Positions 5,061-62,200 of a stretch of 64,000 nucleotides of DNA are shown in pieces. The translations under genes were made by a program, and so were the position numbers. How positions within the stretch are numbered: the stretch's first letter is position 1; every line of letters starts with the position of its first letter. The DNA is from Bolinopsis microptera (lineage: Eukaryota; Ctenophora; Tentaculata; Lobata; Bolinopsidae), in the NCBI RefSeq assembly GCF_026151205.1, contig NC_087077.1, positions 19,527,975-19,591,974 of the forward strand, written 5' to 3'. The notes under the pieces were generated by a model. The model worked only from the letters and a program-made list of their open reading frames with translations, was not told where the DNA came from and did not search any database.

Positions 5061-8000
5061 ATGACTGTAAATGGGAGTGTCACTGTCACCTCTCCGCAAG
5101 CAATCCTCACAGAGGACATCTTTCTCCACCACACCATCAACCCCTCCACCAAGCTCTTCCTAGCTCTCTACTACACGCTCATCCTCATCATGTGTTGGAC
5201 TGGCAACAGTTTCACCCTCTACGCTACTGTTAAACACAATGCTATTAAGCTGGACAAGTTGTCTGTGTGGATCATACAGAACCTCTGCGTGGCTGATATC
5301 CTTCATGGTTAGTACCTTATATAGGCATCACGTGTAGTGCACACTCCTTATATAGGCATCACGTGTTGTCTGTGTGGATCATACAGAACCTCTGCGTGGC
5401 TGATATCCTTCATGGTATGTTTTTAGTACAAATTGTTCACGATTGTCTGTGATAATTGTAGTCGCCATTTTCGTCAAGAATTGCGAAAAAGGCGGGAAAT
5501 TTACTAAATTGTTCCCAATCTTATTATTTATTATTATGTCCGCAATCGAACATGCCAATATTGTTTTAATATACCTTTAAGTTCTACACTACCAAGATAA
5601 GATAATCTATGAGGATATCAGTAGTCAATGACTAGACAGGGTTATTGAAACTTACAAAGAATAAAATGGCGTCTGGACTTGGGACCAGCTCATAGTACAT
5701 TTCATTAATGCCTTCTGAAAACCATTCTGCTAGCTCAAATTATTGTTTATTATTATTAAAACTAAATATGCATATGTAACAAACCTCTCCCCAGGCTGGA
5801 TCCACGTACTCCCCGTAGTAATAGCCCTCTTCTTCAAATACGACCTGGAGCCCATCTGTAAACCGCTCCTCACAATAAAGTACGTCTTTATAGACGCTAA
5901 CTCCTTCTTGATTAACGCACTAGTGTTCAACAAGTTGTACCGGTGCAGGTAAACGAACGACTTATTATACATACCACATTTAAATCGTAATCATTTATTT
6001 TATTGAGCAATATACCACGCTACAATCAATATTATTCGTAACTAATTATATCCGAGGGATCACATTTGAATCGTAATCGATAGTTTGATCCAGTAATTTA
6101 CTACGTTACAATTAGATATGCTAGTCGTAACTAATTTCATCCAAGATACCATACATACCATTCAATTACTTTAAACTGACATATAGGTAAAGTCCTCGTC
6201 ACTTGTTTGGTATAATATAGGTAAAGTTCTCGTCACTTGTTTGGTATAATATAGGTAAAGTTCTCGTCACTTCATTAAACCAGTAGCGGTCGCCGTTCCG
6301 CAAGTGCTGTGGGTAATTTACCTATATTATATCTACTCAGGTTCCCCTTCCGGCCAGCTTCTACTGCTAATACCAGGGTCGGGTTAGTGTACACTCCTTA
6401 TATAGGCATCACGTGTAGTGTACACTCCTTATATAGGCATCACGTGTAGTGTACACTCCTTATATAGGCATCACGTGTAGTGTACACTCCTTATATAGGC
6501 ATCACGTGTAGTGTACACTCCTTATATAGGCATCACGTGTAGTGTACACTCCTTATATAGGCATCACGTGTAGTGTACACTCCTTATATAGGCATCACGT
6601 GTAGTGTACACTCCTTATATAGGCATCACGTGTAGTGTACACTCCTTATATAGGCATCACGTTTACCTATATTATATCTACTCAGGTTCCCCTTCCGGCC
6701 AGCTTCTACTGCTAATACTCGGGTCGGGTTGACGGTGTGTGCGGGACTGAGTGGCTGCTTGTACGCTGTCATCACTATCATCAAAGTTATTCATACCAGA
6801 CATGCTAGGTAAGCTTTCGTTTCTTTTTTAAATTCTTTCCTTTATTGAATTTTTCTTAAATTTTGTTTTCCTTGTACCATGTGTTATACTTTTCTTTTTA
6901 CCACTCATCCGTTAATGTTCTTTAATATTGTGGTAATTTATTGCATCTGGTAAAGAACACAGTTCTTTTTATGCATAATATTGCAATTCTAATTTCATAG
7001 CAATTTTATATAATTTATTGCACAATCACGACAGTTTATTAGATTAATGTTCTCCCCGAAGTAATTTGATTCTAGATTTTTAAGGCATTTTAGATCTTCG
7101 TTTGTTTAGTACTTATTAAACTAACCAACTTAATTTCATTGTAGCTAATAATAGAATGATGTAATCTTACGAAGCATACACTACATTTGCGTGTTTCACT
7201 GTCTAACCATAATCTCCCCGCAGGTTTCAAGAGAACTTCTTTGGTTGTGAGGCGGACGACCCAATGCCAGCCCGGTACAACAAGCTGGATCTGGTGATGA
7301 CGTGCATTGTTCTGGTTATACCCGTTACTACTCTTGTTATTGCTAATACTGCCCTTCTTATTATAGCACTGGGCAAAGGTGGGTTTCTTTCCGTTCATAG
7401 ATGTAGTGAAAATTATTTTTGACACATTTAATTAATATATTATGTATATACATATTATTAGGCTTTGGTTGACAAATTCAAAATTAAACTGAATCAATCA
7501 AAAATACGCGAAATTAAAGGCAATAAACTATCCTAACATTAAAAATGTTTTGAAACTTCAGTATGAGAGGGCCAATTATTTAAATGAAGCATTCAAACTA
7601 ATGTCCCAAATATTTGTATGATGATGATCTAGACAACCTTTTTGTTGTCTAGACAACAAAGTATCATTTCCAAACAAATGATCTGTCTGATCAAATGATC
7701 CTTTAGTTCGATGGCCAATTTTCCGAGAAAAATAAATTGAACAACTTTTCAATCGATCAAACAATGATATGAGTATTGCTGAAAGCACAGTGTAAGGCCT
7801 ACATTTAATGAGCGACGAAGATGAACAAATCGATCTTTAAAATACACTGCGATGAAATTTCATTGCGTTTAAATCGCATCGTTTTGACCGATTTGAAAAG
7901 TTCTAGTTCTGATTTAGGAGAACATATTTTGGAACAACGTAAAACAATTTGAACAATTAGAATCATGAGAGCATTAATTGTTCGACTGAAGAACAGTGTA

Positions 8001-8742
8001 AAATGCTGTAATTCATGTAATTAGTGTATTAATTATGTAATTAGTACTGTAATTATACGTTCAGTTAACCACAACCATCCCAGGTATGAACCTACCAGAA
8101 ACCCGAGAGCGAACCTCCAGCTTAACCGACCGCCGCAAATCAATCCTAAACGCCCAGATAAACAAACGCAGCTTTATCATTATTGGAGCTACCACCATAT
8201 TCTACACAGTAGCCCAACTCCCTTATCTCTACTTCTGTTTCGAGATGTACGGGATCACTAATACTCTGAGTGGACTGACCCTGGTCAGATTCACACGGTT
8301 CTCCTTTGTAATAATGCAGAGCTCCTGTTTTGTAAACCCTATAATATACTTCACGACTAACAGAGGGTTCAGAAGGTTCATGATAGAGTGCGTGTACAGG
8401 TGCATCGGTAAACACAGTGAGATTGAACGTAGAAGTTCAATAGCGGCTCTCTCCCGGAAAGAAACTAGAATGATGAACTCGGTATCTGAGAAATCAACTC
8501 GTTTCAGTACGGTAGCTCCGCGGTTGGAGAGTAAAACAAGCAGTGTTATTTTTAACGTCAGAGCGTATTACGGATGCTACAATGTTAATGTGCCCAAATG
8601 TAAGGGAATTAGTCTTTCAGCAAGAGGCTGCTGTCTCTCAGAACATAAACTAAATGGGAATGATGTAGATGGTATTAAAGATGATATGAATGGAAACAAT
8701 GGTAATCTTCTTGAAACAGAGATGAAAGAAGAGTTTACGTAG
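5061..8742 (+). CDS. Class A (rhodopsin-like) GPCR 1, five exons
   Basis: Predicted 445-residue seven-transmembrane receptor of the plasma membrane; ligand unknown. Exons: 5061-5307, 5795-5948, 6686-6808, 7224-7378, 8084-8742. All introns are GT-AG and all phases (1,2,2,1) join. Visible features: an N-glycosylation site NGS at residues 4-6; TM1 about 32-56 with the GN pair; TM2 with LCVAD; Cys104, the usual TM3 disulfide cysteine; ECL2 cysteine in FFGCEADD; TM6 about 257-280 with a proline; TM7 with NPIIY at 311-315; and a cytoplasmic tail of roughly 125 residues. The DRY box is NKL (128-130), exactly 24 residues after Cys104, followed by RFPF in place of RYPL. Exon 1 end and exon 3 start are both duplicated nearby. 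The start codon is the first ATG of the open exon; an upstream exon cannot be excluded. Confidence 0.88.
5261..5416 (+). repeat. Duplicated GPCR 1 exon 1 end plus donor
   Basis: About 50 bp covering the last 47 coding bases of exon 1 and its donor (5261-5310) recur almost exactly at 5366-5416. The donor is ATG|GTTAGT in the first copy and ATG|GTATGT in the second. Between them lie two copies of a CTTATATAGGCATCACGTG unit, the same minisatellite that is amplified next to exon 3. Using the second donor would require reading through the TAG just after the first, so the first is the likely functional one. Confidence 0.9.
6187..6275. repeat. 33-bp tandem repeat, three copies
   Basis: Three copies of a 33-bp unit containing TATAGGTAAAGTTCTCGTCA in intron 2 of GPCR 1. 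Each unit carries a donor-like ATAG|GTAAAG. No other feature is seen. Confidence 0.85.
6315..6731 (+). repeat. Duplicated GPCR 1 exon 3 acceptor around a 31-bp minisatellite
   Basis: A 72-bp block with the acceptor ATCTACTCAG|GTTCCCC and the first ~46 bases of exon 3 occurs at 6315-6386 and again at 6660-6731; the second copy leads into the complete exon. Between them are about nine head-to-tail copies of a 31-bp unit (TGTACACTCCTTATATAGGC followed by ATCACGTGTAG). The first copy is an orphan pseudo-exon start that ends at a GGGTTAGT donor-like site. The unit matches the pair found beside exon 1, more than 1 kb away. Confidence 0.93.
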
Positions 8743-8971
8743 ATTCAAGTTTCAAACTCGGCCTATTTTTTGTCTTTTTTAATTGTTTAGTAATTTAATC
8801 TTTTGTTTTTTATAGTTCAATTTAGCCGTTGAAACATTTTGTATTCATGACTACCAATATTCAATCGCTACCATTACCAAATGGGGTCAACTGGTAATTT
8901 TGATCGATCCTATTTTGCTAAATACAGCAATTGAAATGTTTTTAAAACGGATAAAAGTGTATTGACATTTT

Positions 8972-9023
<52 letters not shown>

Positions 9024-9039
9024 AAGTGGAATAACTTAC
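8743..9039. other. Gap between convergent genes with hexanucleotide repeat
   Basis: Region between the GPCR 1 stop codon and the last visible nardilysin exon on the opposite strand. It contains a (GTGAAA)n microsatellite at about 8978-9028 immediately beyond the GTAAGT donor of the nardilysin exon. No coding sequence that could supply the missing protease C-terminal half is seen here. Confidence 0.7.
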
Positions 9040-17455
<8,416 letters not shown>

Positions 17456-20275: not shown

Positions 20276-20310
20276 ACTGTTTCGGTATAACCAGCAGCTG
20301 GCTTGGGGTC

Positions 20311-38920: not shown

Positions 38921-38999
38921 TAACTTCTTTAAGTTTCAAATTATTAAGATTATTAAAATCCTTCACACACAATATTAAAAACTTTGAATACAATGTTTA

Positions 39000-43364: not shown

Positions 43365-43373
43365 TGCGTCCTT

Positions 43374-43384
43374 CTCTGCTACCA
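43374..43384 (-). other. Primer-binding site of copia element
   Basis: TGGTAGCAGAG on the minus strand, complementary to the 3' end of initiator tRNA-Met including its CCA, located just inside the 5' LTR. Confidence 0.85.
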
Positions 43385-43386
43385 CT

Positions 43387-43551
43387 TGTTAACTTTAAAT
43401 GGATCACTATGCAATGAAACACACCAGTTGTTACAAGTAATTATCAAACCCCACAGACAACATGTTTGTGGTACATTCTGAAATAGAACACAATTAGTAT
43501 ATATTATATCGACTATCATAAATATATAAACCAAATATATAGCAATTCACA
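43387..43551 (-). repeat. 5' LTR of copia element
   Basis: 165 bp; starts TGTGAATTGC and ends GTTAACA on the minus strand. It is expected to hold the element's promoter and polyadenylation signals, which were not located. Confidence 0.95.
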
Positions 43552-44869
43552 CACGTACCAATTCTGAATATCAAAAACTTTACGTGAAACAACTCACGCT
43601 TTACAAACAAACAAATTAATAAAACTTCGTGACAACCTTCACGTAATAAAATTCAAATATATAAAACAAATTTATAAATACAACTTGCTACCCTACTAAT
43701 TGTCCTTCTCCTAATTGTCCTTCCTACTCTTCTTACTCCTTCTGCCCTGCTGTTCTTTTGAAGTTGAAGTCCACCATCCCCCGTCTCTCCGTCTACCCCA
43801 CCCGTTGTTGCACACCCTCCACAACCATACTCCTAATCCAGGTACCGTACATCTAGGCACGAACCTACACTTACACCATTATTTCCGTACACCTAGTTAC
43901 GAACATAACTTACACCATTATTTCCGTACACCTAGTTACGAACATAACTTACACAATTATCTCCGTACACCTAGTTACGAACATAACTTGCATAATTATC
44001 TCCGTACACCTAGTTACGAACATAACGTATACAATTATCTCCGTACACCTAGTTACGAACTTCACAAAAGTCATTGCAGACCGTCATATTTATAGATATG
44101 AAGTCAAATCATCTAGATTAAACCTTATCGGCACACGATAAATCCAGTCATCTAAAGGCAAACCTAGGCATCAGGAGCGATGCTCTACCGGAACTCAAGG
44201 TGACTCACGCTCTACTCTTCTCCATGGTTCAACAACTAACTTGAATGGCATTTTCCCGCTTTTAGAACTGCTTACCCAACCTTTCACCCATTTGCCAACT
44301 ACATTGTTGTGAATTATTAACGAGTTGGAAAGTTTCTATTTGCCTGAAGATGCAGCCATTCAGTCTTGTCCTTATGGTGTCCACCTGTTTTGTTTTAACA
44401 ACCGTTTAATGTTAACAACCTGTTTATCACACCATTGATCAGTACTTAAAAGTTCCTAGATTGTTATTGAATACACCTACGGATTAGGAGGACGCTCAGT
44501 CAGTCCAGTTTGTAATTTTGGACCAAGAACCTGGGATTATATTTTTATCACAAATGAACATTAACTTCTTAATTATCACCAAATGAATATAATCTCTTAA
44601 TTAATGCTGCTTCTACTGCTTTGGTCAAGAGGACCACTGCACTTTACAGATAAAGCATTGAAGCCCTGTGCTTATCTTGGTATAATATATTATGTGGATT
44701 GTTAACTTTAGGTTTTTTCACATTTGGTGAAACGTTTCGTCGCATTTATGAAAACCAATTATCATGGGGAGTGAGTATTGTCCTCTATGTCTGGTCACAT
44801 TGAGATTAAAGAGTCAAATTATCTCCTTAAAGACCACTTTGGGCACTGACTATAAAGTGATCATCAATA
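43552..44869. other. Copia flank with a 39-bp tandem repeat
   Basis: Five copies of a 39-bp unit (TCCGTACACCTAGTTACGAA plus an A/T-rich part) at about 43865-44065. The unit is 13 codons long, so an open frame with RTPSYEHNLHNY repeats crosses it, but that frame has no ATG and no recognised relatives. The rest (44070-44869) shows no gene. Confidence 0.7.
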
Positions 44870-47800
44870 ATAAATAATAATAACGCTTTATTTGTATACC
44901 GCTTATGCAGTATAAGCGACAAAATTGGGGTTGATACTGCAAAAATGGCCAACAGCGGTGCATTAAGAAAACAATATTTAAGGAAAATTTTTATGTAAAG
45001 TTGTTTTAAAACCTTTGTTAACAAGGTAGTTAGTTCACAGTGTCTCGTATGGACTGTGGCCTGTTTTTGAGTTCGCTTTACCAGTTTGGGATTGATAGGC
45101 AAACTCGTCCACTCCATACTAGTTTGAAGTGAGTGGTGGACAATAAATGTCTCCCAAGTATAGCTAGCCTGATGGTCATCAGAGAGCATTGATGTAATTT
45201 AGTGCGAGCTAGGTCTCAAGTCCGACTCAATCATTTCATTTCTGTTGCAATAAACCAGTGAAGTTATTGGACTGTACTGATTACCTCCAAAAGCTACACT
45301 CTGTTGAATTAAGTTCAAAATACCTCTACTGGTCTTTAAGTTCCTCATTGAGAATTAGCTATCATTAAGGGGGCCGGGGGGGCCGGGGTCATCATCAAAA
45401 TTTCTCACGAAAACGAGTTTAATATTTGGTTTCTGTAGATGGGAGTGATATTATCAGCTGCTTTTAGGTTGCATGAAAAAAATACTTTTCCAGCCGAAAT
45501 TATCGATGGTCAAATGTCAGGCGCTTATGTGTAATTGTATTGCGCGAGCGATTTTTCATCGCACGTTTTGAAAATCTAGTCTAAAAAATCTATTTCTCAT
45601 ACATTTTCTGAGCAATGACCCTCTAACTTTCATGAATATGTCTTAGGAATCAGTTAGAGAGAAACTCGCGCAATACAATTACACCTTAAGCGATGACCTT
45701 TGACCAGCGATATTTGGCTAGGAACATGTTGTTTTTCATGGCAAAAGCAGCTGATAGTTTCACTCCCCTTATCAGAAAACAACTATATAAAGTCGATAAT
45801 TCGAGAGAATTTTGACAAGATCCCCCCCCCCCACCCCCGGCCCCTTGTACCTTTGTACATGCTGCCCTTGTTATTTATCTGGTTTTTAAAAAAAACTAGA
45901 ATCTAATTTTTAGCAATTTGTACGAATAAAAAGATGTAAAACAATTCTTAAGTATACAATGACATTTGGTGTATGACTTTCTGTCCTTGACTGCTAGTTT
46001 GATTTTGAAAGGACAGATAACTAAACGGGCAAGGAATGTGCATTGCCTTGTAATGCCCTAAAATCAACATGGGTTATCACTACCATAAATAAGATTTCAG
46101 CCTAGAAATTTAGGCGATTATATGGCATCTACATTCAACATTATTTATTATATTATATGAAATGGAAAATTAAATTAAGATTATTTTCTATTAAAAAGAA
46201 ATGGAATTTAACTAAGATTATTTTCATAGGAAAAAAATATAGACAAGGAATTATGAACTATATTTTCAATAATATTTGATTGTTAATACATGATAGAATT
46301 TAAAGTATAAAATGGGTTCGTTGTATATAAATTGGGTTGATTTTAAAAGTCTTCAATTTTTAATGGTCGATTTTAACATAGAAAGAGGCCGTGACACCTG
46401 GGTCCGTCAATATGCGGACAACATTAATATTTTATTTTATTTTTTTTTAGATCAAAAACTAATACATGAAAATCAAAGTAGGGTTAAGAAAACTTTGAAA
46501 CTTATAGCATAATAGGGAAAATGCAAAAATAATTAACAACAGGAAAAGTGGCGTGTGAGTGAGCTGCGCCACCAACCAAAACTAATGCAGAGGATCAAGT
46601 CGGGGCTTATGATTTAATTATATTATTTGATGTAAATAAAGGATAGAATTTAAAACTTGTTTCACTAAACTTGTTCCATAAACCTCTGTTAGTCTTGTCC
46701 GCATTATCACAGACATGACCATCGAAACATAACATCATTCAACTTTTCTCTGCTCTATTTGTATTTTCAATTTTTGTTTATATCAATCATTACCATAGCA
46801 GGAAAAAAGGTCTAATAATATCTTTGTGATCAAAAATTTGTATTTCTCAAGAGCTTATAAAATTTATCTATCATTTTGTCATTTGGCTGTGATCTATGAG
46901 TTGTGATCTATTATATTGTGTTAATCGATAACGTTGAATATCATAAAGCAGCTCTTAAAAACGTTTTATTTTTATTGAAACTTTTAAATGATAAATAATG
47001 TGTTGTGTCTGTTAGAATTTGGTAATTCGAGTTTTCAGGTTTTCATCAGAAGTGAAAACAATTCTTCAAATTAATGGAGCTAGGGTGTGAATACTACACT
47101 TCGGAAAATGTATAAAATGTACAATATTTCTAATGGAACTTAAAAACTTAAGTTTAAATCCAAATAAACTTAAGTTTTAAGTTCCATTAAGAAATATTGT
47201 ACATATTTATACATTTTTCAGAGTGTAGTTAGTTACACCCTAGCTCCAAATATGAAGAATTTGTTTCACTCTGGATGAAAATGAAAAAGCTCTAATCTAC
47301 AATTTAACAGACAAACACATTATCTTATCTTTAAAAGTTTCAAATAAAATATAACGTTTTAGAGCTGCTTTATGATATTCAACGATAACGATTACACACA
47401 ATATAAAAGATCAAACACATAGATCAAAGCAATGACAAAATGATAGGCTACGTATTGTATAAGCTCTGAGAAAACAAAATTTTGATCACAAAGATATTAT
47501 AGACCTTATGGTCTGCTAATGTATGATTGATATTAATCAAAAAATTTGAATACAATAGAGGCAGGAGAAAAGGTTGAATTGATGTTTTGTTTTCGATGAT
47601 CATGGGTCTGTGATAATGCTGACAAGACTTAAAGAGTTGAGGAACAAGGTTTTAGTGAAACAAGTTTTAAATTTATCTTTATTTACGAATCAAATTATAT
47701 AATTTAAATCATAAAGCCCCGTCATGATCCTCTTGCATTGTTTTGGTTTGGTGGACGCAGCTTCACTCACACGCACACTTTCCTGTTTGTTAAATATTTT

Positions 47801-49400
47801 TGCATTCCCTATATTCTATAAGTTTCAACGTATTCTTAACCCTACGTTTGATTTTCTGTGTATTAGTTGATACCATTTTATGAACTGGCAGCAATGATAA
47901 GGACCCAGGTGCCGGCTTTCCTTATGTTATCAACATGAAAAATGAAGACTTTAAAATAAACCCAATTATAAACAAGCGAAACCATTTATATTTTAAATTC
48001 TTATCATATTTAACAATCAAATAATATTAATATAGTTTCTAAGTTCACATGTCTATAGTTTTTTCCTAAGAAAATAATCTTAATTTAATTTCCATTCTTT
48101 TTATTAGAAAAATAACTTATTTTAAGTTTCCATTCATAATAATATAATAAATAATGTTGTGTGAAAGTAGATGCCATATTAATCGCCTAAAATTTTGAGG
48201 GGGGGGGCTGAATCTTATTTTATGGTTAGGTGGATTAACCCATGTTGATTTAGGCATTACAAGGATGCACATTACTTGCCCAGTTAGTTATCTGTCCTTT
48301 CAAAATCAAACTAGCAGTCAAGGACAAAAGTCATACAACCAACATGGGCAATATAAATTTAAGAATTGTTTTACATCTTTTTATTCTGTAAAAATGTGCT
48401 AAAAATTAGGATTCTTGTTTTTTTTAAAAACAAGATACAGTACAAGGGCAGCTGTACCAAGGTGCAAGGGGCCGGGGGGGGGGGGGGGGGGGGGGGGATC
48501 TTGTTCAAAAATTCTCTCGTAATATCGACTTTATGTTGTTTCTGATAGGAGGGGAGTGATATCTATCAGCTGCTTTTGGTCCCTGGTAAAAAACATTGTT
48601 CTAGCCTAAAATTATCGCTGGTCCAACGGTCAGCGCTATGTGTAATTGTATGCGCGAGTTCTCTTCTAACTGATCCTAAGAACATATCTTGAAAGTTTGA
48701 GGGTACATTGCTCAAAAACTGTATGAGAAGATAGATTTTTAGACTAGATTTTCCAAAACGTGCGATTGTAATCGCTCGGCACTACAATTACACATAGAGG
48801 CTGACATTTGACCAGCGATAATTTCGGCTAGAACCAGTAATTTTTCCATGCAAACTAAAAGCGTGATAAGAATCACTCCCTTATCAGAAACACTATAAAA
48901 TCGATTTCGAGAGAATTTTGATGAAGACCCCGGCCCCCCGGCCCCCTTAATGAGGAGCTATGTCAATGGAGGAACTTAAAGACCGTAGAGGTATTTGGAA
49001 CTTAATTCAACAGAGTGTAGCTTTTGGAGGTAATCAGTACAGGTCAATAACTTCACAGGGGTTATTGCAACAGAAATGGAATGATGAGTTGGACTTGAGA
49101 CCAGCTCTCACTAAATTACATCAATGCTCCTCTGATGACCATCAGGCTAGCTATACTTGGAGGACATTTATTGTCCACCCACTCACTTCAACGAGTCTGG
49201 AGTGACGAGTTTGTACATCATCCCAACTTGGTAAAGAGAACTCAAAACAGCGGCCACAGTCCCTTACGAGGACACTGTGATACTATAATACCTTGTTAAC
49301 AAATGTTTAAAAACAACTTTACCTAAAAATTTTCCTTAAATATTGTTTTCCTTAATGCACCGCTTTGTTGGCCAGTTGCAGTTAAACAACCCACTTTTGT
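44870..49400. repeat. 4.5-kb imperfect palindrome
   Basis: Two arms of about 2.25 kb in opposite orientation meet near 47163, where ACTTAAAAACTTAAGTTT faces AAACTTAAGTTTTAAGT. Paired landmarks include the C-run at 45823-45845 with the G-run at 48473-48498, GGGGGCCGGGG at 45369 with CCCCGGCCCCC at 48929, and TCACAGTGTCTCG at 45034 with CGAGGACACTGTGA at 49266. The arms differ by many substitutions and small indels. Short open frames at 45189-44827 and 48960-49205 share DDHQASYTW but are not recognised. It could be an old foldback element, or a read or assembly foldback artefact. Confidence 0.85.
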
Positions 49401-49663: not shown

Positions 49664-49723
49664 CAAGGTGTTATTTTTTTAGGGGCCCAATCATTGGGCC
49701 CCTAAAAAATAACACCTTGTGTT
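49664..49723. repeat. Long hairpin, stem about 26 bp
   Basis: ACACAAGGTGTTATTTTTTT and AGGGGCCCA are mirrored across AATCATT by TGGGCCCCT and AAAAAATAACACCTTGTGT, with one unpaired T. CACAAGGTGTTA recurs at about 49830. It is probably part of a small inverted-repeat element; no coding sequence is seen. Confidence 0.88.
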
Positions 49724-50049
49724 TTGCGTGAAACGTATTAGTTTGTTATTTGATGGTCGAGCAAAATGGTTTATAAAACATTCTGTTTAATAACATGGTT
49801 TTCTAGAAAAAATTAGCATGACGCAAATCACAAGGTGTTAAACATGCAATTTTTGGGTCATACAAAAAGTTTTATGATATTCGCATATTGGTTTCATTTC
49901 TTATAAAAACCATCTCAGTGCTTATCGTATTAAGTTTTTAATTTTGATATTCGGTCAGTTATATTTGTTGTAAAATCTAATATAAATACAGTTATAAAAA
50001 TTTAAAATAGAGAAAATGTGCTAAAAAACTAAAACATAGGTACCTCAGA

Positions 50050-53000
50050 ATGGCAACAACGCCGCCCTACCACCTAATCTACTTGGACCGTCTACTGGGA
50101 ACAGTATTCTGTCTGATAGCTCTTATCGGGTAATTAAACTTGCTAAAGACGAAAACGAAACGAAACGAAACACTGTATTTACTACCCCGCTACTATGCGA
50201 CAAAGATATTGTATAAAGTTAACTAAATAATTTACACAATACGGTGCCCATGTCTGAGCGGCTCTCCTCAAATAACTTTCTCTCCTCCTCGGAGCAGAAA
50301 GTTAAAAACAAAACACGGGTCTCATAAATCAAAAAATACTAAATAATGTTAAAGAGATCATATCAGATTAACTGTCGCAAAAAATGGTTAAAGTATGCAT
50401 ATTACATAATTGATTTTATTGACACACCGATAAAAACCAGAAGAACAAGAAGTGGATACTCGGAAAACAAAAAAAAAATAACACAAAAAAAGACTAGAAG
50501 CCACAAAAAATAGCTTAACCAGGCTAAAGTTGATCATACAAATAGTTCTTTAACTTACCCTTAAAAGAGACAATATTGTCGATGTTACGGACATTAAGAG
50601 GGAGAGAGTTCCATGATTCAGGTGCATAGTTGCTGAACCGCCTGCTAGTTGCCTTCAATTTAGAGAACTTAGGTATCTTCATAAGAAGGTTGCATGCTGT
50701 TTTTGTTCTGGTTTCTTTGACAGCCTTATCATCTCTGTTCATTTGAACCAACTCTTGGAGGTACATTGGTGCCAATCCATGCGTCACTTTGAAACAGATG
50801 AGACACACTTTGAAAAATATCCTCTTTTCAACAGGGAGAATATGAGCTTTCTTGTAGAAAGGAGACAAGTCAGTATTTCTGTCATAGATGTCGTAAATGA
50901 AACGTATCCCTGCATTTAGAACAGATTGCAGCTTCTTCACTCTAGTCTTTGAAAGATTCATGTAAAGGGCATTACAATAGTCCAGCTTTGATATGATCAG
51001 TTGTTTGACCAGCATGAGCTTAACTCTCTCATCTAGATACTTTCTGATAGTTCTAAGATTGTTCATTGTCCAGGAACAGTTCTTCCTAACGTTGTTAATC
51101 TGCCTTTCCATGTTGAGAGATTCATCTAGTAATACTCCAAGACTCTTCCAGGTATCGTTTTTACATACAGTTGGTGTAATAATGGTGTCACCAAACTTTA
51201 TTGTTATTTCAAGGTCAAACTTCTTCAGTACCAAAGGCTTTCCAATGACTAACAATTCTGTCTTGCTCTCATTCAGTTTCATGAAATTATTAACCATCCA
51301 TACTTTGATTTCAGACAGACAGTCATTGATCCTACTAGTGACATTCTGCAGCTCCATGGGTCTCATCGGGTGGAAAGCTATATAAAGTTGTGAGTCATCT
51401 GCATAAAGCTGAATATCGAGACCATACTTTCTAGCTATTTCCTGGAGCAGCTTAATGTATAAGATGAACAGGATCGGTCCCAATAGAGAGCCCTGGGGTA
51501 CCCCAAACAACAGACACAGGAAGTCAGATAATGAGTCATCTACCTTAACCTTGAAAAACCTGCCTGAGAGGTATGAACTAAACCATTTCAATGCAGAGTC
51601 CTTAATACCAAAATCTTTTGCCAGCTTCTTAAGAAGGATTGTATGATCAATCGTGTCGAAAGCAGCAGAGAGATCAAGTAGGACTACAATCACAATGTTG
51701 TTCTTCTGCACTTCCTTAAGAATATCGTCTGCCATCCTGACCATCAGGGTTTCACAACTGTGGTTCGCTCTGTATCCAGACTGAACTGGGCAATGCAGAC
51801 TGTTTAAATGTAAGTGATTGTTTAACTGCTCAAGTACAATCTTTTCAATCAGTTTAGACATAACTGCAAGATTTGAGACTGGTCTGTAATTCTTCAGAAT
51901 ATCTGGATCAGCATTCTTCTTCTTGATAGTGGGCTTGACCAGTGCAGTCTTCATCTCGGCTGGAAACACACCTTGCAACATAGAACCGTTTATTATGTGC
52001 AGGAGGATCGGTGCCAACTCCTGAGAGCATTTCTTCAACATGAAAGTTGGAATAGGGTCAAGACTACAAAACTTGTTAGACATCTTAGAAATGGTGTGTA
52101 ACAGGTGCTGCCTAGTGATGGAGTGAAATTTATCAAATGATGGCCCTGAATAGGTGCTTTCAAGATTCTCTGACGATGACAAGTTCCCTCCGATATGACT
52201 TCCTTCTTCTTCTATCCCAAGTCTGATATCATTCACTTTATCCGCAAAGATAAATTTTAAAACTTTCTGCCAGTTTTTTAGTGTCATTACCATGTGGCCT
52301 TTCTTGGGTAGTTTCACCCGTGAGTCTATAAACTTTCTTGTACAGAGCCTTCGTATCTCCCGCAGAGGCTAAGAGGGCTTTTCTATTGTAAGTAATCCTC
52401 TTCTGTCGCTCAATGACAATAAATTTGTTCCTGAGGTTGACAAAAATATCCTTCTGTCCCTTGCCTTTCAAGGGACAGAAGTATATTTATATATTAAATG
52501 CAGAATCACACTAGTAATTTCTAAATAACAGTACATTACAGATTCCTCTCGAATGGACTAATGGGAGTACACCTGATAGCTCTGAAGAAGAAGTTCAAAA
52601 CTAGGACTACCTCCCTGCTAGTTCAGATATCAGCTGCAGACTTTCTCACCTGTCTTACTGTTGCCCCAGCAGTTGGTGGTACGTTCATTATTGTTTAATA
52701 ATCTTTAAGTTAGTTAAACAACCCTTTAGTTAATTTAGTTAAACAACCTTTTAGTTAATGGTTAAACGACCTTTTATTTATTAGTTAAAATATTCCAAAT
52801 TCTGGTCACGCTCTTTATAATGTATATATAGGTTTTATAATTATGTTTCTTTAGATAAAGATTGGATGGCAGCGTTGTGTTTACACTATCTGTTATTTAG
52901 AACTTTAGTATATATATCCTAATTTCACAATTAGCATTTATCTCTAAATTTAGTAACGAAACCATAATCAGGCATCAGCATCATCAGTGACCTATCATTA

Positions 53001-56000
53001 AATACTTATCGGCACCAATAACCATTACAACTACCTGAACCATATACCAGACACATATTAGATATTCAGTCTCTAATTAATTACTAATTAGTCTCTAATT
53101 AATTACTAATTAGTATCTAATTAATTGCTAATTAGTTTCTGTTCCAGGTGGACTACTAAGTAATCGAGAGTTACCATTTTGGATCGGAGGGAGTTATGAA
53201 CGTACCTCATTCCTTGCTAATCTAACAGGTATGTTTATCTTCTTATCTTATAACTTTGCTGACGATCTTGCACTGACAACAGACACCGCAGAGCAAGCGC
53301 AAGATCTTCTCCTCAGTGTGGAGCTGGCTGCTAACTCCGTTGGACTTCACCTCAACGAGAGTAAGACGAAGTACATCAGAGTCAATCTCTCTGAGTCTGA
53401 CTCTACCGTCATTAAAGCAGCAAGTGGGCAGGAGATAGAGCAAGTAGATGACTTTGTCTACCTTGGAAGCAGAATAATGAGTGTGGAGAAGGACTTTAAT
53501 GTTAAGAAAGCAAAGGCATGGGGGGCCTGTCATCAGTTAAAGACAACCTGGAAGTCTGGAATGTGCAGGGACTTAAAGATCCGTGTCTTTCGAGCAACGG
53601 TTGAGCCCGTACTCCTGTACGGCTCTGAAGCTTGGACGATAAGCCAATCCATGACTAAGCGGATCAATGGATGCTACACTAGAATGCTCCGGATGGCCTT
53701 GAACATACGTTGGCCACAAATCATCAACAACATTGATTTATACGGCAACATCCCCAAGCCATCAGCGATGATAGCCTCCAGAAGAATGAGACTGGCTGGA
53801 CATGTAGCCAGGCATGACGACCTTCTGGCAAACCAACTTCTGTTCTGGGACCCTCAGCATGGATACAGGAGACCGGGGAGGCCCCACCTTACGTTTCTGG
53901 ACATGCTAAAGAAGGACACCAGCCTTTCCTGTGTTGAAGAGATAAGATCTGTTATGCTGGACCGCGACGTGTGGCGAGGAATTGTAGTTGCTCGGACCAA
54001 GAAGCCGACTTAAGTCAAGTCAGTCAAGTCTTATCATATAACAAGGTGTATTCATGAATATTCCATGCATATTCCATGAATATTCCATGAATATGCCATG
54101 AATATTAAAGGTATATTCCATGAATAATTTAATATGCCATGAATATTCCATGAATATGCCATGAATATTAAAGGTATATTCCGAGTATTCCTATAAGATG
54201 TACTGGTCAGAGATCGTACTCTGTATTCTGTACGTTGGCCAGATTGCCCTAAACAAAAATCAATTTTTAGATTTTAAGAAATTTATTTTTTACTCAATGT
54301 GTGCTTTTTTCTGAAATTTAAGTTATTTTCTGTTTTGTTGCACCTTTAAAACCCCACCAAATCACTTTTTGACCCATTTTTAACCCCACTCCCCCCTCAG
54401 CCCTCCGTAATCAATTTTACACATAGCTATTGTGTCAAAATTACACTAGCGTAATCATTTAGAAACCCCTCCCCCCTCGGCTGATTACGTAATATGTGAA
54501 CGGCCCCTAATTATTACAATGTTGCAACCCTATAAATTACAACATGTGCCGTAATCATTTAGAAATCCCTCCCCCTTCGGCTGATTACGTAATATGTGAA
54601 CGGCCCCTAATTATTACAATGTTGCAACCCTATAAATTACAACATGTGCCGTAATCATTTAGAAATCCCTCCCCCTTCGGCTGATTACGTAATATGTGAA
54701 CGGCCCCTAATTATTACAATGTTGCAACCCTATAAATTACAACATGTGCCGTAATCATTTAGAAATCCCTCCCCCTTCGGCTGATTACGTAATATGTGAA
54801 CGGCCCCTAATTATTACAATGTTGCAACCCTATAAATTACAACATGTGCCGTAATCATTTAGAAATCCCTCCCCCTTCGGCTGATTACGTAATATGTGAA
54901 CGGCCCCTAAGTATTACAATGTTGCAACCCTATTACAACCATATTACAGACAATCCTATTATAAAATTACAGACTACTGTATTATAAAGTACTAGTGTAA
55001 CCCGGCCTTCGGCCGGGATTTCACTGCCGCAGTTAAAAAGGGTAGGATAATTTACCCGTTGAGTCAAAACCCGCATTAGGTGAGCAATTCTATTCGGAGT
55101 GCCCTCACGTATCCAATGGTATCTTAAACAATAGTAATAGTATCTTAAACAATAATCAATAGAAATTAACCCTTAACACCACACCCGCCTATCATATTTG
55201 TGAACACGCATAACATTGTCGTATGAAAGTATGAACTCTCTCTCTGCAGTCCAAACAGTGCCCCCTCCCCTAATAAGATTATAGTATAGACAGCGAATCT
55301 TACACGGGTAACTCAGTTACACTAATTATGCAGCTACATATGCGAGCCCCGTAACTCTTATACTGTTGTGCTCAAGCCATTTTATGTAACATTTGTGGTA
55401 CAAAATCATCAATTAAACCACTTACCAACGACCGATTTAAAAAACCTTTATCATTTAACTTCGTCAGAGTTTTGTCGGCACTTTACCGAAAAAATCAGTC
55501 CCGCAACTCTTACCGTTTTCTTGATTAAGCCGCTCGGAAATTACAAACAGACAGACAGACAGACAGACAGAAAACACACATTCTGGGATTATTAGTTAGA
55601 TAACAGTAACTTAAATACCACGTGTTGACCAGACATTGAAATTACCGGTCTCGCTGAATTGAATCATAACCATCTCCATTTCTGAACAATCAAAAGATTA
55701 TCCACCCACTACCCCCCTCAGCCACTACCTTTCTCCCAGAGCAAACCGCCCTTTATGAGCCTTAATCTCATGAACTCTCTTTATATGGGCATCATGAAAC
55801 TTAACCCCCTACCCCCCTCAGGCTGGGTATCCTCAGCAATGAAACTTAACCCCCTACCCCCCTCAGGCTGGGTATCCTCAGCAATGAACGGAGCCTCTCT
55901 CTACTTGATCTGCGTGCTGAGTATAGACAGGTTCTACGCAGTGTTCTACCCCCTCCACCGGCCCTGCATCCTCACCAACACCCGCCTCACCGTCCTGTGT

Positions 56001-57457
56001 GCCACCTCCTGGCTCATCCCTGTTGTTAGCAACACCTACCCCTTCTTCAGGTAAATCCCTGTTGTTAGCAACACCTACCCCTTCTTCAGGTAAATACCTG
56101 TTGTTAGCAACACCTACCCCTTCTTCAGGTAAATACCTGTTGTTAGCAACACCTACCCCTTCTTCAGGTAAATACCTGTTGTTAGCAACACCTACCCCTT
56201 CTTCAGGTAAATACCTGTTGTTAGCAACACCTACCCCTTCTTCAGGTAAATACCTGTTGTTAGCAACACCTACCCCTTCTTCAGGTAAATACCTGTTGTT
56301 AGCAACACCTACCCCTTCTTCAGGTAAATCCCTGTTGTTAGCAACACCTACCCCTTCTTCAGGTAAATCCCTGTTGTTAGCAACACCTACCCCTTCTTCA
56401 GGTAAATACCTGTTGTTAGCAACACCTACCCCTTCTTCAGGTAAATCCCTGTTGTTAGCAACACCTACCCCTTCTTCAGGTAAATACCTGTTGTTAGCAA
56501 CACCTACCCCTTCTTCAGGTAAATCCCTGTTGTTAGCAACACCTACCCCTTCTTCAGGTAAATCCCTGTTGTTAGCAACACCTACCCCTTCTTCAGGTAA
56601 ATCCCTGTTGTTAGCAACACCTACCCCTTCTTCAGGTAAATTCCGGATTGGAATGTTATTTTTGAGTCGCATAGTTGAAATGTTTTCCTGATAAGATCCT
56701 TTTCCTTGTCGCATCAAACGGGATCAATAGCAATTTACCCAAGACAACCATCTTCAGGGGAGCCCACTTCTTCTACTACGATATCCTGGGTTTCTACGTG
56801 TCCACCCCCCTCGTCACCTCCGGTCACGAGCAGAACGTTATCTACATTGTAAGTAACGTGTCAGTACTTCTCCCCTTTTGTGTCACAGTTGGGTTCTGTC
56901 TAGCAGTAGTCAGCAGACTGGCTCAGTACGCTGGACGTCCTAAACCTGGCATTAACCTGGAGCTACACCAACCTGTCAGCGTGCTCGCTCCCAAGTCAAA
57001 GAAACTCTCCGTTAGATCCCATAGATCTTCCCGCAGACTAGGGCGGATCCTGACCAGGATGAAGAGGATCCCAACAAGTCAGAAGGTTCGGGTGTCAGCA
57101 GGGACGAGGAGGATTGCAGCTAAACGGAGGGCTGGGAGGAATACGGACAAGAACAATATTGTGACGGTGATTATTACTCTTTACATCCTCTGCTTGCTAC
57201 CTGGCATTCTAATGAATGTCTATGAACTCCTCAATACTTTCAATGCTCTGCCACAAAGTGCTTCTGTAACTAACATGTCGGACCAAATGTTGAGTACGTA
57301 TATCTATATTTCACTGTTATTTTCAACTCTACTGTTCACCCTTAATTCATGTGTTAACCCATTTATTTATTATTTTAGATGTAACCCTATATTTGCGCTA
57401 CCAAAACCCATCGCTAGGGCTCTTTACATTTGGAAAGTTAAGTTTCAATGTAAGTGA
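50050..57457 (+). CDS. Class A (rhodopsin-like) GPCR 2, five exons
   Basis: Predicted 393-residue seven-transmembrane receptor. Exons: 50050-50129, 52542-52678, 53148-53228, 55867-56050, 56758-57457; all introns are GT-AG and phases 2,1,1,2 join. TM1 carries LSNG (about 29-32), TM2 ISAADFLTCL, ECL1 the FWIGGSY tryptophan, TM3 ends in SIDRFYAVFYPLHRP (DRF at 120-122), ICL3 is long and basic, TM6 holds CLLPG, and TM7 has NPFIY at 361-365. The position of the usual TM3 cysteine is Ala96 and ECL2 also has no cysteine, so the canonical disulfide is absent. The N-terminus before TM1 is only about 12 residues, and CCTCAG precedes the ATG by one base, so an upstream exon is possible. LINEs occupy introns 1 and 3; exon 4 has duplications at both of its junctions. 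Ligand unknown. Confidence 0.87.
50524..52478 (-). pseudogene. CR1/L2-like LINE ORF2 in GPCR 2 intron 1
   Basis: 5'-truncated non-LTR retrotransposon inserted opposite to the receptor. The minus strand from 52471 to about 52240 encodes the linker (KKVYRLTGETTQERPHGNDT), shifts frame once near 52270-52310, and continues to 50524 through the RT: NYRPVSNLAVMSKLIEKIV, VVLLDLSAAFDTIDHTILL, FGVPQGSLLGPILFILYI and the catalytic QLYADDSQLY, then the usual C-terminal domain (RRFSNYAPESWNSLPLNV). Only the one frameshift is seen. A polyadenylation-type AATAAA follows at about 50420 on the minus strand. At the 5' end TTCTGTCCCTT and AAGGGACAGAA form a small hairpin. Confidence 0.88.
53240..54040 (+). pseudogene. 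LINE reverse-transcriptase C-terminal part in GPCR 2 intron 3
   Basis: Open from about 53231 to the stop at 54013. It starts at the catalytic box (FADDLALTTDTAEQAQDLL) and runs through DDFVYLGSRI, RVFRATVEPVLLYGSEAW, RMRLAGHVARHD and GYRRPGRP, as in the abundant animal endonuclease-reverse transcriptase LINEs. Everything upstream of the YADD-type box is missing. The 5' junction falls within about 20 bases of the receptor's exon 3 donor (53229). A short AAGTC repeat tail follows the stop codon (54012-54031). Confidence 0.85.
54050..54185. repeat. CCATGAATATT repeats
   Basis: Imperfect tandem copies of CCATGAATATT/CCATGAATATG, with a longer ~63-bp unit (ending AAAGGTATATTCC) present twice. Confidence 0.85.
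54450..54935. repeat. 100-bp tandem repeat, five copies
   Basis: Nearly identical units starting GTAATCATTTAGAAATCCCT at 54450, 54551, 54651, 54751 and 54851. Each includes CTGATTACGTAAT and CAATGTTGCAACCC. Located in GPCR 2 intron 3. Confidence 0.95.
54990..55610. mobile_element. Interspersed-repeat remnant with CCCGGCC hairpin
   Basis: Starts with a strong hairpin CCCGGCCTTCGGCCGGG (54998-55014) and ends in a (CAGA)n tract at about 55549-55571 followed by TTCTGGGATTATTAG. The layout resembles a SINE or other non-autonomous retroelement, but no tRNA-like promoter or clean target duplication was identified. Confidence 0.45.
55797..55890 (+). repeat. GPCR 2 exon 4 acceptor, two in-frame 45-bp copies
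   Basis: The unit (CTACCCCCCTCAG|GCTGGGTATCC and onward to GCAATGAA) is duplicated with a 45-bp period, giving equivalent acceptors at 55821 and 55866. Both stay in frame with exon 3. The upstream choice would add 15 residues at the top of TM3, so the downstream one fits receptor structure best. Confidence 0.92.
56012..56640 (+). repeat. GPCR 2 exon 4 donor, sixteen 39-bp copies
   Basis: The last 33 coding bases of exon 4 (encoding PVVSNTYPFFR) and the first six intron bases are repeated sixteen times with a constant 39-bp period; the junction GGT recurs from 56050/56051 to 56635/56636. Each unit contains CTACCCCTTCTTCAG|GTAAAT, a good acceptor and a good donor back to back. Units alternate between two variants (GTAAATCCC and GTAAATACC). 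In the receptor frame each donor is followed by TAA, so only the first donor gives a normal product unless sites are used in succession. Confidence 0.96.
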
Positions 57458-59281: not shown

Positions 59282-62200
59282 CTAGTCTTGAGAAATGATA
59301 ATATTCAACATGCCAGATGTAGTTTTAGTAGAGGTTACCCTACCCTTAGTGATAAGGGACACCTGACCAGTGAACCTGATATCAACCCACTGTTCGGTTA
59401 TCCCTGCTTGCTCTGGTGGTCTCTCTAATGTGGAGTACGTGTGCAGGAAAGTGGTGTAGCGTTGTAGAGATGTGGTCTGAAATAATGGGCTGTAGTTTAC
59501 GGTTCCTGAGTTGATATCTTCTGTGTTTCATAACCCTTATATCAAACCAAACTCCAAACAGTTACCCCTATTTGAGTATTTGATACGAAAAAAGAGTGAC
59601 ATGACTAACGATGAAATATTTCGTGTGAAGACAGATCAACCTTAAAATGTAATATCCTAATATTAACCTGTTTAGCTGCTGCCTCAATCACATCTCCAAC
59701 CTTGCGAGCCGCACCTGTTATCACGTCAATATATATTTTTGCCGGATTATCTGGTTCTGTTTCTAGATCCACTGTCCACATAGATGTCACTGTCACTCTA
59801 AAAAGTATTTTTCAATTACGGGTAAACCGCCCCTAAAACGTCACCTGTTTTTTGGGCCCAGATTGCCGAGTTAGGGCTAAATTTACAGGGTTCTGAAGTG
59901 TCTAGGAATAATATTTAAACCTTTTTCTAGCCTGCCAGGAAGATTTGGAGATTTGAAAATAAAATCAGGTACAATTTTTTTGACGTTGAAATGGAGTCAC
60001 TTTTAAAACACCACCCCTAAAATGTCAACTCTATATGTGTGATAATTACAAAATCTACAGGAGGCCTGATTTATCTTTTGTCACTAGTACTATTTGTTTT
60101 GTCTTATTAAAACATTAAGCTACTTGAAAACATTCACTCACTAAAGGAAGTACCTCAAAACCGTAATCACCCCCTAAAATGTAACGTGCACCACCTCTAA
60201 AACGTCAGCTAAAACAGGTTGTGTAGCACTCAGAATGTTGCTCAATTATTAATTTTAATCACTTCTGGGACAAATATAACCTATTTCTGAGAGGTGTCGA
60301 CCAGAATTTCTCTCTCTGTTGAAAAAAAATGGTGGAATTTAGTCAATTTACTTTTTGTGACATTTTGGGGACTTTTTGTTGAATACCCAGAACTTACGGC
60401 AAAACAGTAACTCAGTCAACAAAATTTACACCTGTAGTTAGATTATCTAGTTATAAACTAACAATTGGCACAAAAGAAATGGATTCAATGTGATTTTAAC
60501 CTAGTGCAAATTGCATGTCAAAAACTACGGTTTTTGGTACTTACTAGTTTATGGTAAACCTATGATATGCCCCCTAAAATGTCATTTTTTTCTCCCCTAA
60601 AATGTCAAATTTGTATTTTGTTCGCATGGTGTGCGATAATAGCTCTTGTTTTGGCACTTGTTAATTATTAACATCAACTATTAACGAAATGTGAGTATGC
60701 ATTGCATCTTAGGAAAAGCCTGAGTAATTTGATCAGGTTAAAATGACATTTTAGGGGGGATAATTAGACATTTTAGGGGATGTTTATTGCGATTAATAAA
60801 ATAAAACTAATTCCTTGAGCTGCCAAAGCTTTCCAATATTACCATTAGATGCTAAATATGATGTTTAATAGGCTGGTACCTCCATTTTATGGTGCTTGTA
60901 GTCTCAAAGCCAGAATTTGATAAAATGACATTTTAGGGGGCGGCCAGGTGACATTTTAGGGGAGGGTAGTAATATTGAGTAATGTATAACTTTCCATATC
61001 TCCAGTCATATGTACAAAGTTGCTAAAATATGTAAATAAAATAAATAAAATGTAAATAAATAAAATATTATAATAATACAATAAAAATACTTAATACTTA
61101 ATATTTAATAATTTGCTCAACCCGTGTACTTACGTAAGAGGGCTTGTAGATGACTGATGTTTTGTGTTCTGATAAGAGTCCACAATACTTGCTGACTCCG
61201 CAAACTTTATCCCTGTTATTCTGTAGCGAACAGAGCGTTCCTTGAATAATATGAGAAATAAGGGACAGTAAGCTAAAACCCTACCGTCCAACTTGAGAGT
61301 ACAAAATTAGTCATGTTATAGCCACATTATTTGTATGTCACGAGATATCGTCAACTGTATAAACTGAACCTGTATAAACTAACAGTTGAACCTGTATAAA
61401 CTCACAGTGTTGGGCTCCACAATATTAACTTGTAGTGTGTCCAGTAAAGGAGGTTTCCCCTCAGGTTGGTGGTAGATAGAAGAGGTGTAAGTAAAGGAGC
61501 TGAGAGGGATACCAGATCCAGCTGCCTTCCAGATCGTGCTCTCTAATCTCTTATCAGTCCTGTGTTACTCAGGTCACTCAGTAAAACAGATTACAGTTAA
61601 CTCTAATCTCTTATCAGTCCTGTGTTACAGGTCACTCGTTATCAGTAAAACAGGTTACAGTGTGTTAACTCTAATCTCTTATCAGTCCTGTGTTACAGGT
61701 CACTCGTTATCAGTAAAACAGATTACAGTGTGTTAACTCTAATCTCTTATCAGTCCTGTGTTACAGGTCACTCGTTATCAGTAAAACAGATTACAGTGTG
61801 TTAACTCTAATCTTTTATCAGTCCTGTGTTACAGGTCACTCGTTATCAGTAAAACAGATTACAGTGTGTTAACTCTAATCTCTTATCAGTCCTGTGTTAC
61901 AGGTCACTCGTTATCAGTAAAACAGATTACAGTTAACTCTAACGTGACTATGTCATATGTAAAGTGTGTTAACTCTAATCTCTTATCAGTCCTGTGTTAC
62001 GCAGGTCACTCAGTAAATTACAGTGTGTTAACTCTAGTGTAACTATAATGTAAGAAATGCATAAGATAGACAGATACAGAGACTTGGTTCTTGAATGAGT
62101 AACTTCCATAAGTAACTTTAGTAACTTTAGTAACTTTAGTAACTTTAGTAACTTTAGTAACTTTAGTGACTTTAGTAACTTTAGTAACTTTAGTAACTTT

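Follow-up and report, generated by a model that had tools for sequence, protein, structure and literature searches.

Genes and duplications in the window

The window, by which we mean the whole stretch of 64,000 nucleotides that was analysed, lies at 19.53-19.59 Mb of chromosome C6 of the ctenophore Bolinopsis microptera. It holds four modelled genes, GPCR 1, nardilysin, GPCR 2 and an unnamed gene, and short tandem duplications affect all four (Table 1). The entire 6 kb to the left of the window is filled by a 52-bp satellite, and none of the remaining nardilysin exons was found in that satellite tract. An Rfam scan of the window at the gathering threshold and a tRNA scan gave no matches. A LINE reverse transcriptase of the window has a 98% match.

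Table 1. Duplicated splice junctions, predicted new introns and an associated mobile element, in window positions
Feature	Position	Strand	Description
GPCR 1 exon 1 donor, duplicated	5258..5416	+	copies 5258-5309 and 5365-5416, 55-bp filler between
GPCR 1 exon 3 acceptor, duplicated	6317..6729	+	copies from 6317 and 6662, nine 31-mers between
Probable new intron following nardilysin exon K	9725..10374	-	CTTCAG|GT segment x3, TIR element in second copy
MITE-like element	9752..10341	.	41-nt terminal inverted repeats; lies within the stretch 10374-9725
Predicted new intron within nardilysin exon G	12608..12822	-	exonic segment with CACCAG|GTTTAT x3, 10-mer repeat between copies
Nardilysin exon G acceptor	12874..12964	-	40-bp unit x2
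Nardilysin exon F acceptor	13250..13480	-	56-bp unit x4
Nardilysin exon E donor	13754..14000	-	154-bp unit x2, AG microsatellite included
Nardilysin exon D donor	15134..15269	-	46-bp unit x2.8, decayed first copy upstream; either donor may serve
Nardilysin exon C donor	16105..16526	-	90-bp unit x4.8: exon end, donor, short filler
GPCR 2 exon 4 acceptor	55791..55891	+	45-bp unit x2.1, in frame, open
GPCR 2 exon 4 donor	56011..56648	+	39-bp unit x16, unit carries CTTCAG|GTAAAT
Unnamed gene, second-exon donor	61362..61410	-	22-bp unit x2; absent from the initial annotation
Unnamed gene, second-exon acceptor	61536..62041	-	68-bp unit x5.9

An NCBI B. microptera protein is identical to the GPCR 1 model over 445/445 amino acids, and its splicing uses the first donor copy of exon 1 (5307|5308) and the last acceptor copy of exon 3 (6685|6686). 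The filler between the two exon 1 copies consists of variants of a 31-mer that is found also at 6385-6662, and exact copies of this 31-mer occur in one array only (8/8 places) of the 265-Mb genome. The 16 donor copies of GPCR 2 have a mean identity of 0.985, and the nardilysin exon C array, divided into five 90-base segments of which the last overruns the array, has a mean pairwise identity of 0.85 with a minimum of 0.69.

The draft translation of nardilysin gave 120 listed matches that were 29-47% identical, most of them 30-40%, in a search that covered no full-length proteins. This draft query had small letter errors where exons F and I begin, and its join between exons D and E was a guess; the E-L part was re-searched with letters taken by script from the sequence. 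Exon L starts at 9126 and exon I at 11190, and the 36-mer at the exon I junction is unduplicated with the start set at either 11190 or 11199 (0.56 and 0.53). When an alternative-haplotype copy of exons F-G was sought, every scored candidate was either the window, one of its own copies or a minisatellite match.

Predicted new introns in the nardilysin gene

The initial annotation had listed about twelve duplications of an exon edge together with its splice site. All twelve are present, that of exon D in decayed form, but two of them are better read in another way: what had been called an internal segment of exon G is a real duplication that makes up an intron, and the copies assigned to the donor of exon K probably do the same. 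Intron G, 215 bases long, is flanked by copies of a single exonic AG|GT segment, with CACCAG|GTTT at both ends, while the stretch at K reads CTTCAG|GT at both ends. If intron G is retained a stop codon is met, at a place that falls within the intron whether it is drawn with 215 or with 210 bases; if it is removed, so that 12823 is joined to 12607, a reading frame resembling insulin-degrading enzyme (IDE) stays intact. Exons E-L joined across G and K align with IDE (1.2e-41) over residues 1-346 of 346. In this alignment the G join lies within an ungapped run, with gaps of 1 residue and 5 residues just before it, and two 1-residue gaps come after the K join. The stretch 12822-12608 is, as predicted from these features, a new intron derived from a duplicated exonic AG|GT segment.

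A second new intron is probably formed by the stretch 10374-9725, with a 24-base exon at 9724-9701 after it; if this exon is real, the stretch is exonic on both sides. The protein with the 24-base exon outscores the direct K-L join in 18/19 relatives matched by both versions, and among the 120 matches 39 belong to the version with the exon versus 21 to the K-L join; the gain in the IDE score is 1 bit (146.5 vs 145.5). The direct K-L join is also open and in frame, and the stretch may therefore hold copies of the old intron's donor instead. Three further long copies of the MITE-like element within it, at 98-99% identity, lie on C11 and C12.

Comparison of the donor and acceptor flanks of each intron gave a similarity score of 33 for intron G, obtained with the intron boundary 5 bases off (a 210-base intron), and of 61 for K, versus a control maximum of 20 among 506 mismatched pairs. 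These two stand out among 23 introns. In the other 21 introns of the window no fossil homology between donor and acceptor was detected, their scores of 9-17 all lying below the control maximum; the highest were GPCR 2 intron 4 (17) and nardilysin intron C (16), and the 95% and 99% levels of the control were 16 and 18.

Junctions within the window

About half of some 24 junctions had been thought to be affected, a figure that has to be revised. We curated 46 junctions, and 48 pre-existing ones are obtained when the two of intron K are subtracted and four less certain ones are added; with about 48 junctions rather than 24, about a quarter therefore have a copy. The junction-centred 36-mer is duplicated at 11/46 curated junctions with both ends of K included, and at 9/44 without K, the GPCR 2 exon 4 acceptor being set one base early in this count. 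The earlier observation that no duplication lies wholly inside an exon holds for those that are unspliced: duplicated 36-mers are present in 8/29 exons (5,083 bp as drawn at that stage), and 8/8 such stretches extend to within 0-1 bp of an exon edge.

Whether a junction excess is seen depends on the counting unit, bases covered versus events. A coverage test within the window, with low-complexity 36-mers left out, found no excess at junctions (11/46, P 0.30). When arrays were collapsed to one copy, 11 of the 28 events in the window lie across a junction that already existed, versus null means of 0.99 for the whole window, 1.65 without mobile elements and 2.79 for genes only (18 events), and 0/20,000 random placements reached 11 under each of the three nulls. 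This event count leaves out a 12-mer array, arrays with units of 6-10 bp and three duplications that lie in mobile elements; K and G are uncounted as junction events, and taking K as a donor copy would raise the number to 12. Uniform placement does not explain the event-level excess in the window. The choice of this window for the pattern weakens the excess and may not remove it.

Samples elsewhere in the genome

A strong process amplifying junctions had been proposed as a property of the genome, one against which a lack of enrichment elsewhere would count, and in the 255 kb sampled there was none. No junction-spanning duplication was found at the 77 junctions of six myosin loci, which were set automatically from match ends and splice matrices so that some will be wrong. 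Across 20 blocks of 10 kb spaced along C1-C3, 2/184 predicted junctions were duplicated versus 1.8 events expected under uniform placement, in a count that skipped exons with a duplicated core. The junction hit rate tracks the local duplication coverage: at threshold 20 the two are 12.9% versus 16.2% in the window, 1.1% versus 3.9% in the spaced blocks and 0% versus 2.3% in the myosin loci. Array loci with a period of 20 or more number 4.2 per 10 kb in the window versus 2.0 in the sample. A pattern that stands out in a single window can be absent when the same genome is sampled elsewhere.

The myosin sample used 47/73 matches, in six dense-exon clusters hand-picked from the match table, and one repeated exon (L030) was already visible in that table when the clusters were chosen. 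Myosins are conserved genes that may not represent all genes, and the spaced blocks represent three chromosomes. The splice matrices and the codon table were trained on four pieces of the window, one of which (nardilysin F-K, 883 bases) added noise, its frame having been lost through wrong draft boundaries of exons G and I. Reversed sequence as a control yielded 31 exons versus 70 in the real sequence at threshold 22, and 58 versus 134 at threshold 18; about 40% of the predicted exons are therefore false.

Origin of the duplications

We favour, at a probability of roughly 70%, the reading that short tandem duplications arise at a locally high rate and are sorted by selection and splicing, with no general attraction to junctions. 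Breaks or replication template switches would copy 20-90 bp next to the source, sometimes with filler taken from a repeat of the same gene, and the copies would then grow into arrays. If a duplication includes an existing donor or acceptor, the old mRNA would still be made, from the first of the donors or the last of the acceptors, and the remaining copies would become intron. Where an exonic copy carries AG|GT, the outer copies would supply the donor and acceptor of a new intron; through such splicing out of extra copies at least one of the duplications here would have become a new intron. Other exonic copies would disrupt the reading frame and be lost. Junctions elsewhere in the genome would be hit at the rate of uniform placement, as they were in the samples. 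This sorting by splicing and selection can be read from the sequence. Duplicated positions make up 2.4-4.3% of exon interiors versus 17-21% of introns and non-TE intergenic sequence, and a non-outermost copy tried in place of the outermost led to a frame shift or stop in 8/9 events, length being the sole criterion for two of these 8 (nardilysin acceptor G and donor E); only the 45-mer at GPCR 2 exon 4 behaved otherwise. Both results support the other suggestion of the initial annotation, that selection removes all other duplications.

A process directed at junctions, in which exon-intron boundaries start duplications through transcription-linked breaks or splice-site DNA, perhaps in some genes or regions, would account for the event-level excess in the window (11/28 versus 1.0-2.8 expected) and for the fact that all four modelled genes are affected. 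Independent junction-spanning copies also exist elsewhere, at a donor (L005:3894-4033) and at what by eye is acceptor-like (L014:7820-7960). We nevertheless consider such a process unlikely, given the junction counts in the myosin loci and spaced blocks, where one of the two cases, within a G-rich array of L021, may rest on a falsely predicted exon, and given a coverage test without excess even in the window. Equally doubtful is a regional form of the idea, in which duplication in some regions or gene classes starts preferentially at junctions or AG|GT, is templated from repeats of the same gene and makes junction copies and introns serially, the window beside the 52-bp satellite being one such region. 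It is less probable still that the copies have been selected as decoy donors or acceptors tuning splicing or expression. Donor motifs are indeed carried by the sixteen GPCR 2 copies and the 4.8 nardilysin C copies, but recent duplication alone gives arrays with intact motifs, as the near-identity of the GPCR 2 copies illustrates, and the units vary between events.

Insertion of mobile introns (introners) at exon edges, leaving long target-site duplications, might be suspected from the filler that separates two copies in several events and from the variants of one 31-mer at two GPCR 1 junctions. However, the exact-copy search with this filler found no copy elsewhere in the genome, fillers vary by gene (31-mer, 10-mer, AG repeat), and the duplicated units, 22-90 bp long or 154 bp where the AG repeat of exon E is included, far exceed the target-site duplications of 3-9 bp of some introner families (PMC9860276). 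The sole clear mobile element at these sites, that at 9752-10341, sits inside a copy of the duplicated segment, and we find this origin highly improbable. We give as little credence to the copies being collapsed or expanded artefacts of assembly. Near-identical arrays are where assemblies err, but copies within arrays are non-identical, as in nardilysin C, each listed junction array spans <700 bp, and the independent NCBI protein agrees with the GPCR 1 model.

Relation to known systems

Tandem duplication of AG|GT is known as a route of intron gain (Hellsten et al. 2011 among others; PMC4974935, PMC3443670), and the B. microptera case belongs to this already known route. As in the introns described there, a copied exonic segment would give both donor and acceptor and leave the coding sequence unchanged, which fits nardilysin 12822-12608 and probably 10374-9725. 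The present case differs from those described: it has three copies, together with filler or a MITE, comes from a ctenophore and has many junction copies alongside. Fresh introns with readable source copies are scarce, and here one clear and one probable example lie in the same gene; with about ten junction copies of graded age beside them, they allow the birth of introns to be followed in what may be the sister lineage of all other animals.

The local mode of duplication resembles the small tandem duplications of break repair, which are <100 bp and adjoin their source, although that mechanism was demonstrated in cultured cells (PMC8355091) whereas in Bolinopsis we infer it. In the potato RdRp intron, as here, the duplicated segment crosses an existing acceptor; as described, that duplication made a new intron, whereas the acceptor copies in the window merely lengthen an old one (PMC4974935). 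In human segmental-duplication genes, boundary repeats can form novel introns, and internal tandem repeats are likewise kept in exons or spliced out, the account of them drawing on paralogue comparison and transcript support (PMC2812944) and ours on a single genome. The tandem-repeat introns of fission yeast, SPOG_01682 and SOCG_00815, have the proto-splice site AGGC and some EST support (PMC3629103), whereas those predicted from the Bolinopsis sequence have AG|GT. They share with the latter multi-copy short exonic repeats, a proto-splice site and non-identical copies, and in both several copies compose one intron (PMC3629103).

Duplicated junctions and gene models

Duplications were sought with TRF, with a 36-mer scan of 46 curated junctions and with a 24-mer component scan (34 loci), and the junction duplications listed in the initial annotation were thereby confirmed. 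A copy of the junction's own 36-mer (at least 72% identity, within 1.2 kb) was found at 11 of the 46 curated junctions, two of these being the ends of the stretch after nardilysin exon K; the earlier estimate that roughly half of the junctions are affected was overstated. What had been described from the sequence largely stands, except that affected fraction; of the listed cases one, and probably a second, amounts to an entire new intron. To the eye, the nardilysin D-E intron resembles an extended series of exon D donor units that have decayed, which suggests an older, larger array of that unit.

The window (C6:19527975-19591974) belongs to a 264.65-Mb assembly of 232 contigs, and an extract of PMC11797021 gives 265 Mb for Bolinopsis microptera. 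GPCR 1, once spliced, agrees at all of its 445 residues (445/445) with the NCBI entry 'uncharacterized protein LOC134817202 [Bolinopsis microptera]', so the genome is that of this ctenophore. Nardilysin exons were modelled on homology to insulin-degrading enzyme, which the script-derived exons E-L match at 1.2e-41 (residues 1-346 of 346) and a longer join, an approximate query assembled by eye, at 2e-90 (residues 1-479 of 483); the exon D donor and exon E acceptor are placed tentatively. GPCR 2 was modelled from a single open frame across five exons, splice signals and a 7tm_1 match in the last exon, and the provisional model of the unnamed gene came from splice signals and from five exons whose open frames agree. 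GPCR 1 occupies, on the opposite strand, the place expected for the remainder of nardilysin beyond exon L (9040), and possibly sits inside an intron of nardilysin; nardilysin exons after L were found neither within the window nor in the 6 kb to its left.

Coordinates of features in the window and in sampled loci (L-numbers)
Feature	Coordinates	Strand	Basis or remark
52-bp satellite with TTTCAG	1-4037; L036:1-6000		77 copies in 1-4037
GPCR 1	5061-8742	+	
GPCR 1 exons	5061-5307, 5795-5948, 6686-6808, 7224-7378, 8084-8742	+	NCBI protein
Nardilysin 24-base exon (probable)	9724-9701	-	follows third exon K segment copy
Nardilysin intron after exon K (probable)	10374-9725	-	
MITE-like element	9752-10341		590 bp, 41-nt inverted ends
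Nardilysin intron in exon G (predicted)	12822-12608	-	
Nardilysin D-E intron	14060-14990	-	
Uninterrupted open frame	39000-43388		1462 aa; integrase core and RVT_2 domains
Large imperfect inverted repeat	44954-49364		fold-back about 4.4 kb
LINE-like reverse transcriptase	50524-52368		inside GPCR 2 intron 1
Element with terminal inverted repeats	62479-63428		30-nt repeats (97%)
26-bp minisatellite	63425-64000		
Donor array, spaced block	L005:3894-4033		67-bp unit x 2.1
Array resembling acceptor copy	L014:7820-7960		by eye
Adjacent myosin exons	L030:3012-3485		

Predicted introns made of copies

In nardilysin exon G a CACCAG|GT segment occurs in three copies, with a TTGTTACACT-type repeat between them, bounding a stretch whose flanking exons form one open frame, ungapped at the join against insulin-degrading enzyme. 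Judged from its sequence, this stretch is a predicted new intron, more than a junction copy. After exon K a segment ending CTTCAG|GT is also present in three copies, the second of which holds the MITE-like element; three more long copies of this element, at 98-99% identity, lie on C11 and C12, and it probably moved recently.

The stretch after exon K is a probable second new intron, with 24 coding bases after the third copy and then exon L at 9126. The initial annotation had read the exon K copies as donor duplications, which they would be if K joins straight to L, and this direct join is also in frame. Against insulin-degrading enzyme it scores 145.5 bits compared with 146.5 bits when the 24-base exon is included. 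The version with this exon also matches 39 of 120 relatives, against 21 for the direct join, and scores better in 18 of the 19 relatives matched by both. When donor flanks were aligned with acceptor flanks in 23 introns, K scored 61 and G 33, the remaining 21 introns scoring 9-17; the maximum among 506 mismatched control pairs was 20.

Persistence of the copies

We replaced the outermost copy of a duplicated junction (the first donor copy or the last acceptor copy) with another copy at the duplicated junctions of GPCR 1, GPCR 2 and nardilysin exons C, E, F and G. A stop or frame shift arose from the second copy at GPCR 1 donor 1 and acceptor 3, from copies 2 to 5 at nardilysin donor C and from all three alternatives at nardilysin acceptor F, while copy 2 at GPCR 2 donor 4, the copy tried there, met a stop within the first added unit. 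At nardilysin acceptor G (40 bases) and donor E (154 bases) a frame shift was judged from length, and intron G, if retained, encounters a stop. The 45-mer of GPCR 2 acceptor 4 was the sole tested copy in frame and open, and this extra copy could be translated as well. Duplicated 36-mers were found in 8 of 29 exons, all eight stretches coming within 0-1 bases of an exon edge. From these results we conclude that what remains after selection is only the copies that splicing can hide.

Excess at junctions

The window is rich in arrays (27 loci of period at least 20, or 4.2 per 10 kb versus 2.0 in the sample), and many of its junctions are therefore duplicated. With the junction set shifted along the window, the coverage test gave 11/46 against 7.5 +/- 4.9 expected (P 0.30), and stricter thresholds gave 10/46 (P 0.33) and 7/46 (P 0.44). 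The event test collapsed arrays to one copy and barred placements wholly within exons; for 48 junctions, 11 of 28 events spanned a junction, against null means of 0.99 (whole window), 1.65 (without mobile elements) and 2.79 (genes only, 18 events), and 11 was reached in 0 of 20,000 placements under each of the three nulls. This event-level excess is left over after array richness. Part of it, and we do not claim all, is due to the choice of window, since the genome holds about 4,100 such windows and one was reported for its pattern. Because the leftover is only partly explained in this way, we retain, as an unlikely reading, a junction-directed duplication process restricted to some regions.

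Amplification of junctions throughout the genome, as had been proposed, was not borne out across 255 kb sampled elsewhere, comprising 200 kb of spaced blocks (20 x 10 kb, C1-C3) and 55 kb of myosin (six loci). None of 77 junctions in the myosin loci carried a copy (Fisher P 9e-6 versus the window's 11/46), and the 20 spaced blocks had 2 of 184 predicted junctions, versus 9 of 70 for the window with the same predictor (P 2e-4); one of the two (L021) falls within a G-rich array, and its exon is possibly spurious. Under uniform placement, 1.82 junction-spanning events were expected in the blocks and 2 seen (38 arrays), and 0.40 expected and 0 seen in myosin (14 arrays). The junction rate was at or under local duplication coverage in all three sets (window 12.9 versus 16.2%, blocks 1.1 versus 3.9%, myosin 0 versus 2.3%). 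The array in L005 copies the predicted donor TTGCCACG|GTGAGT and is an independent junction duplication; that in L014 was uncounted by the predictor. The adjacent exons in one myosin locus both encode one and the same head-domain stretch (positions 105-167 and 102-167), and resemble the mutually exclusive exons that the title of PMC3912159 mentions.

Origin of the copies

By eye, breakpoints of two-copy cases appear to carry short shared words (ATGAA at GPCR 2 acceptor 4, AT at its donor 4, TA at nardilysin acceptor G) or fillers. A filler 31-mer, exact or variant, lies between the copies at both duplicated junctions of GPCR 1; nowhere else in the genome does this 31-mer recur exactly. The exon G filler is 85-86% similar to a 10-mer array about 1.2 kb off in nardilysin, with weaker likeness to other genome repeats. 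Templating from nearby sequence, while breaks are repaired or DNA is replicated, fits these observations; dispersed mobile elements as the source of the copies do not fit them. That break repair generates tandem duplications of less than 100 bp is reported in an extract of PMC8355091.

Extracts of earlier papers describe intron gain by tandem duplication of AGGT segments (PMC3443670, a review whose table lists 188 events from several species), multi-copy cases of intron gain in fission yeast (PMC3629103), a duplication crossing a boundary in potato (PMC4974935), duplications of proto-splice sites in Drosophila (PMC2891723) and introns formed from repeats at exon-intron boundaries in human genes (PMC2812944). 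A high content of tandem repeats is known from ctenophores, 13% of Hormiphora being TRF-marked according to an extract of PMC8527503. Among the matches listed in the open-access literature there was no report of junction-spanning tandem duplication in ctenophores, which does not prove its absence.

Other repeats and elements

The 52-bp satellite fills all 6 kb to the left of the window (L036) as well as its first 4 kb, and extends over at least 10 kb. There are 44 arm pairs of the large inverted repeat in 44500-49400. A protein labelled Gadus morhua shares 73% identity over 79% of the reverse transcriptase, which would be odd for a cod genome. The long open frame is presumably copia-type. The element with terminal inverted repeats adjoins the 26-bp minisatellite, a unit copy of which also lies on its far side.
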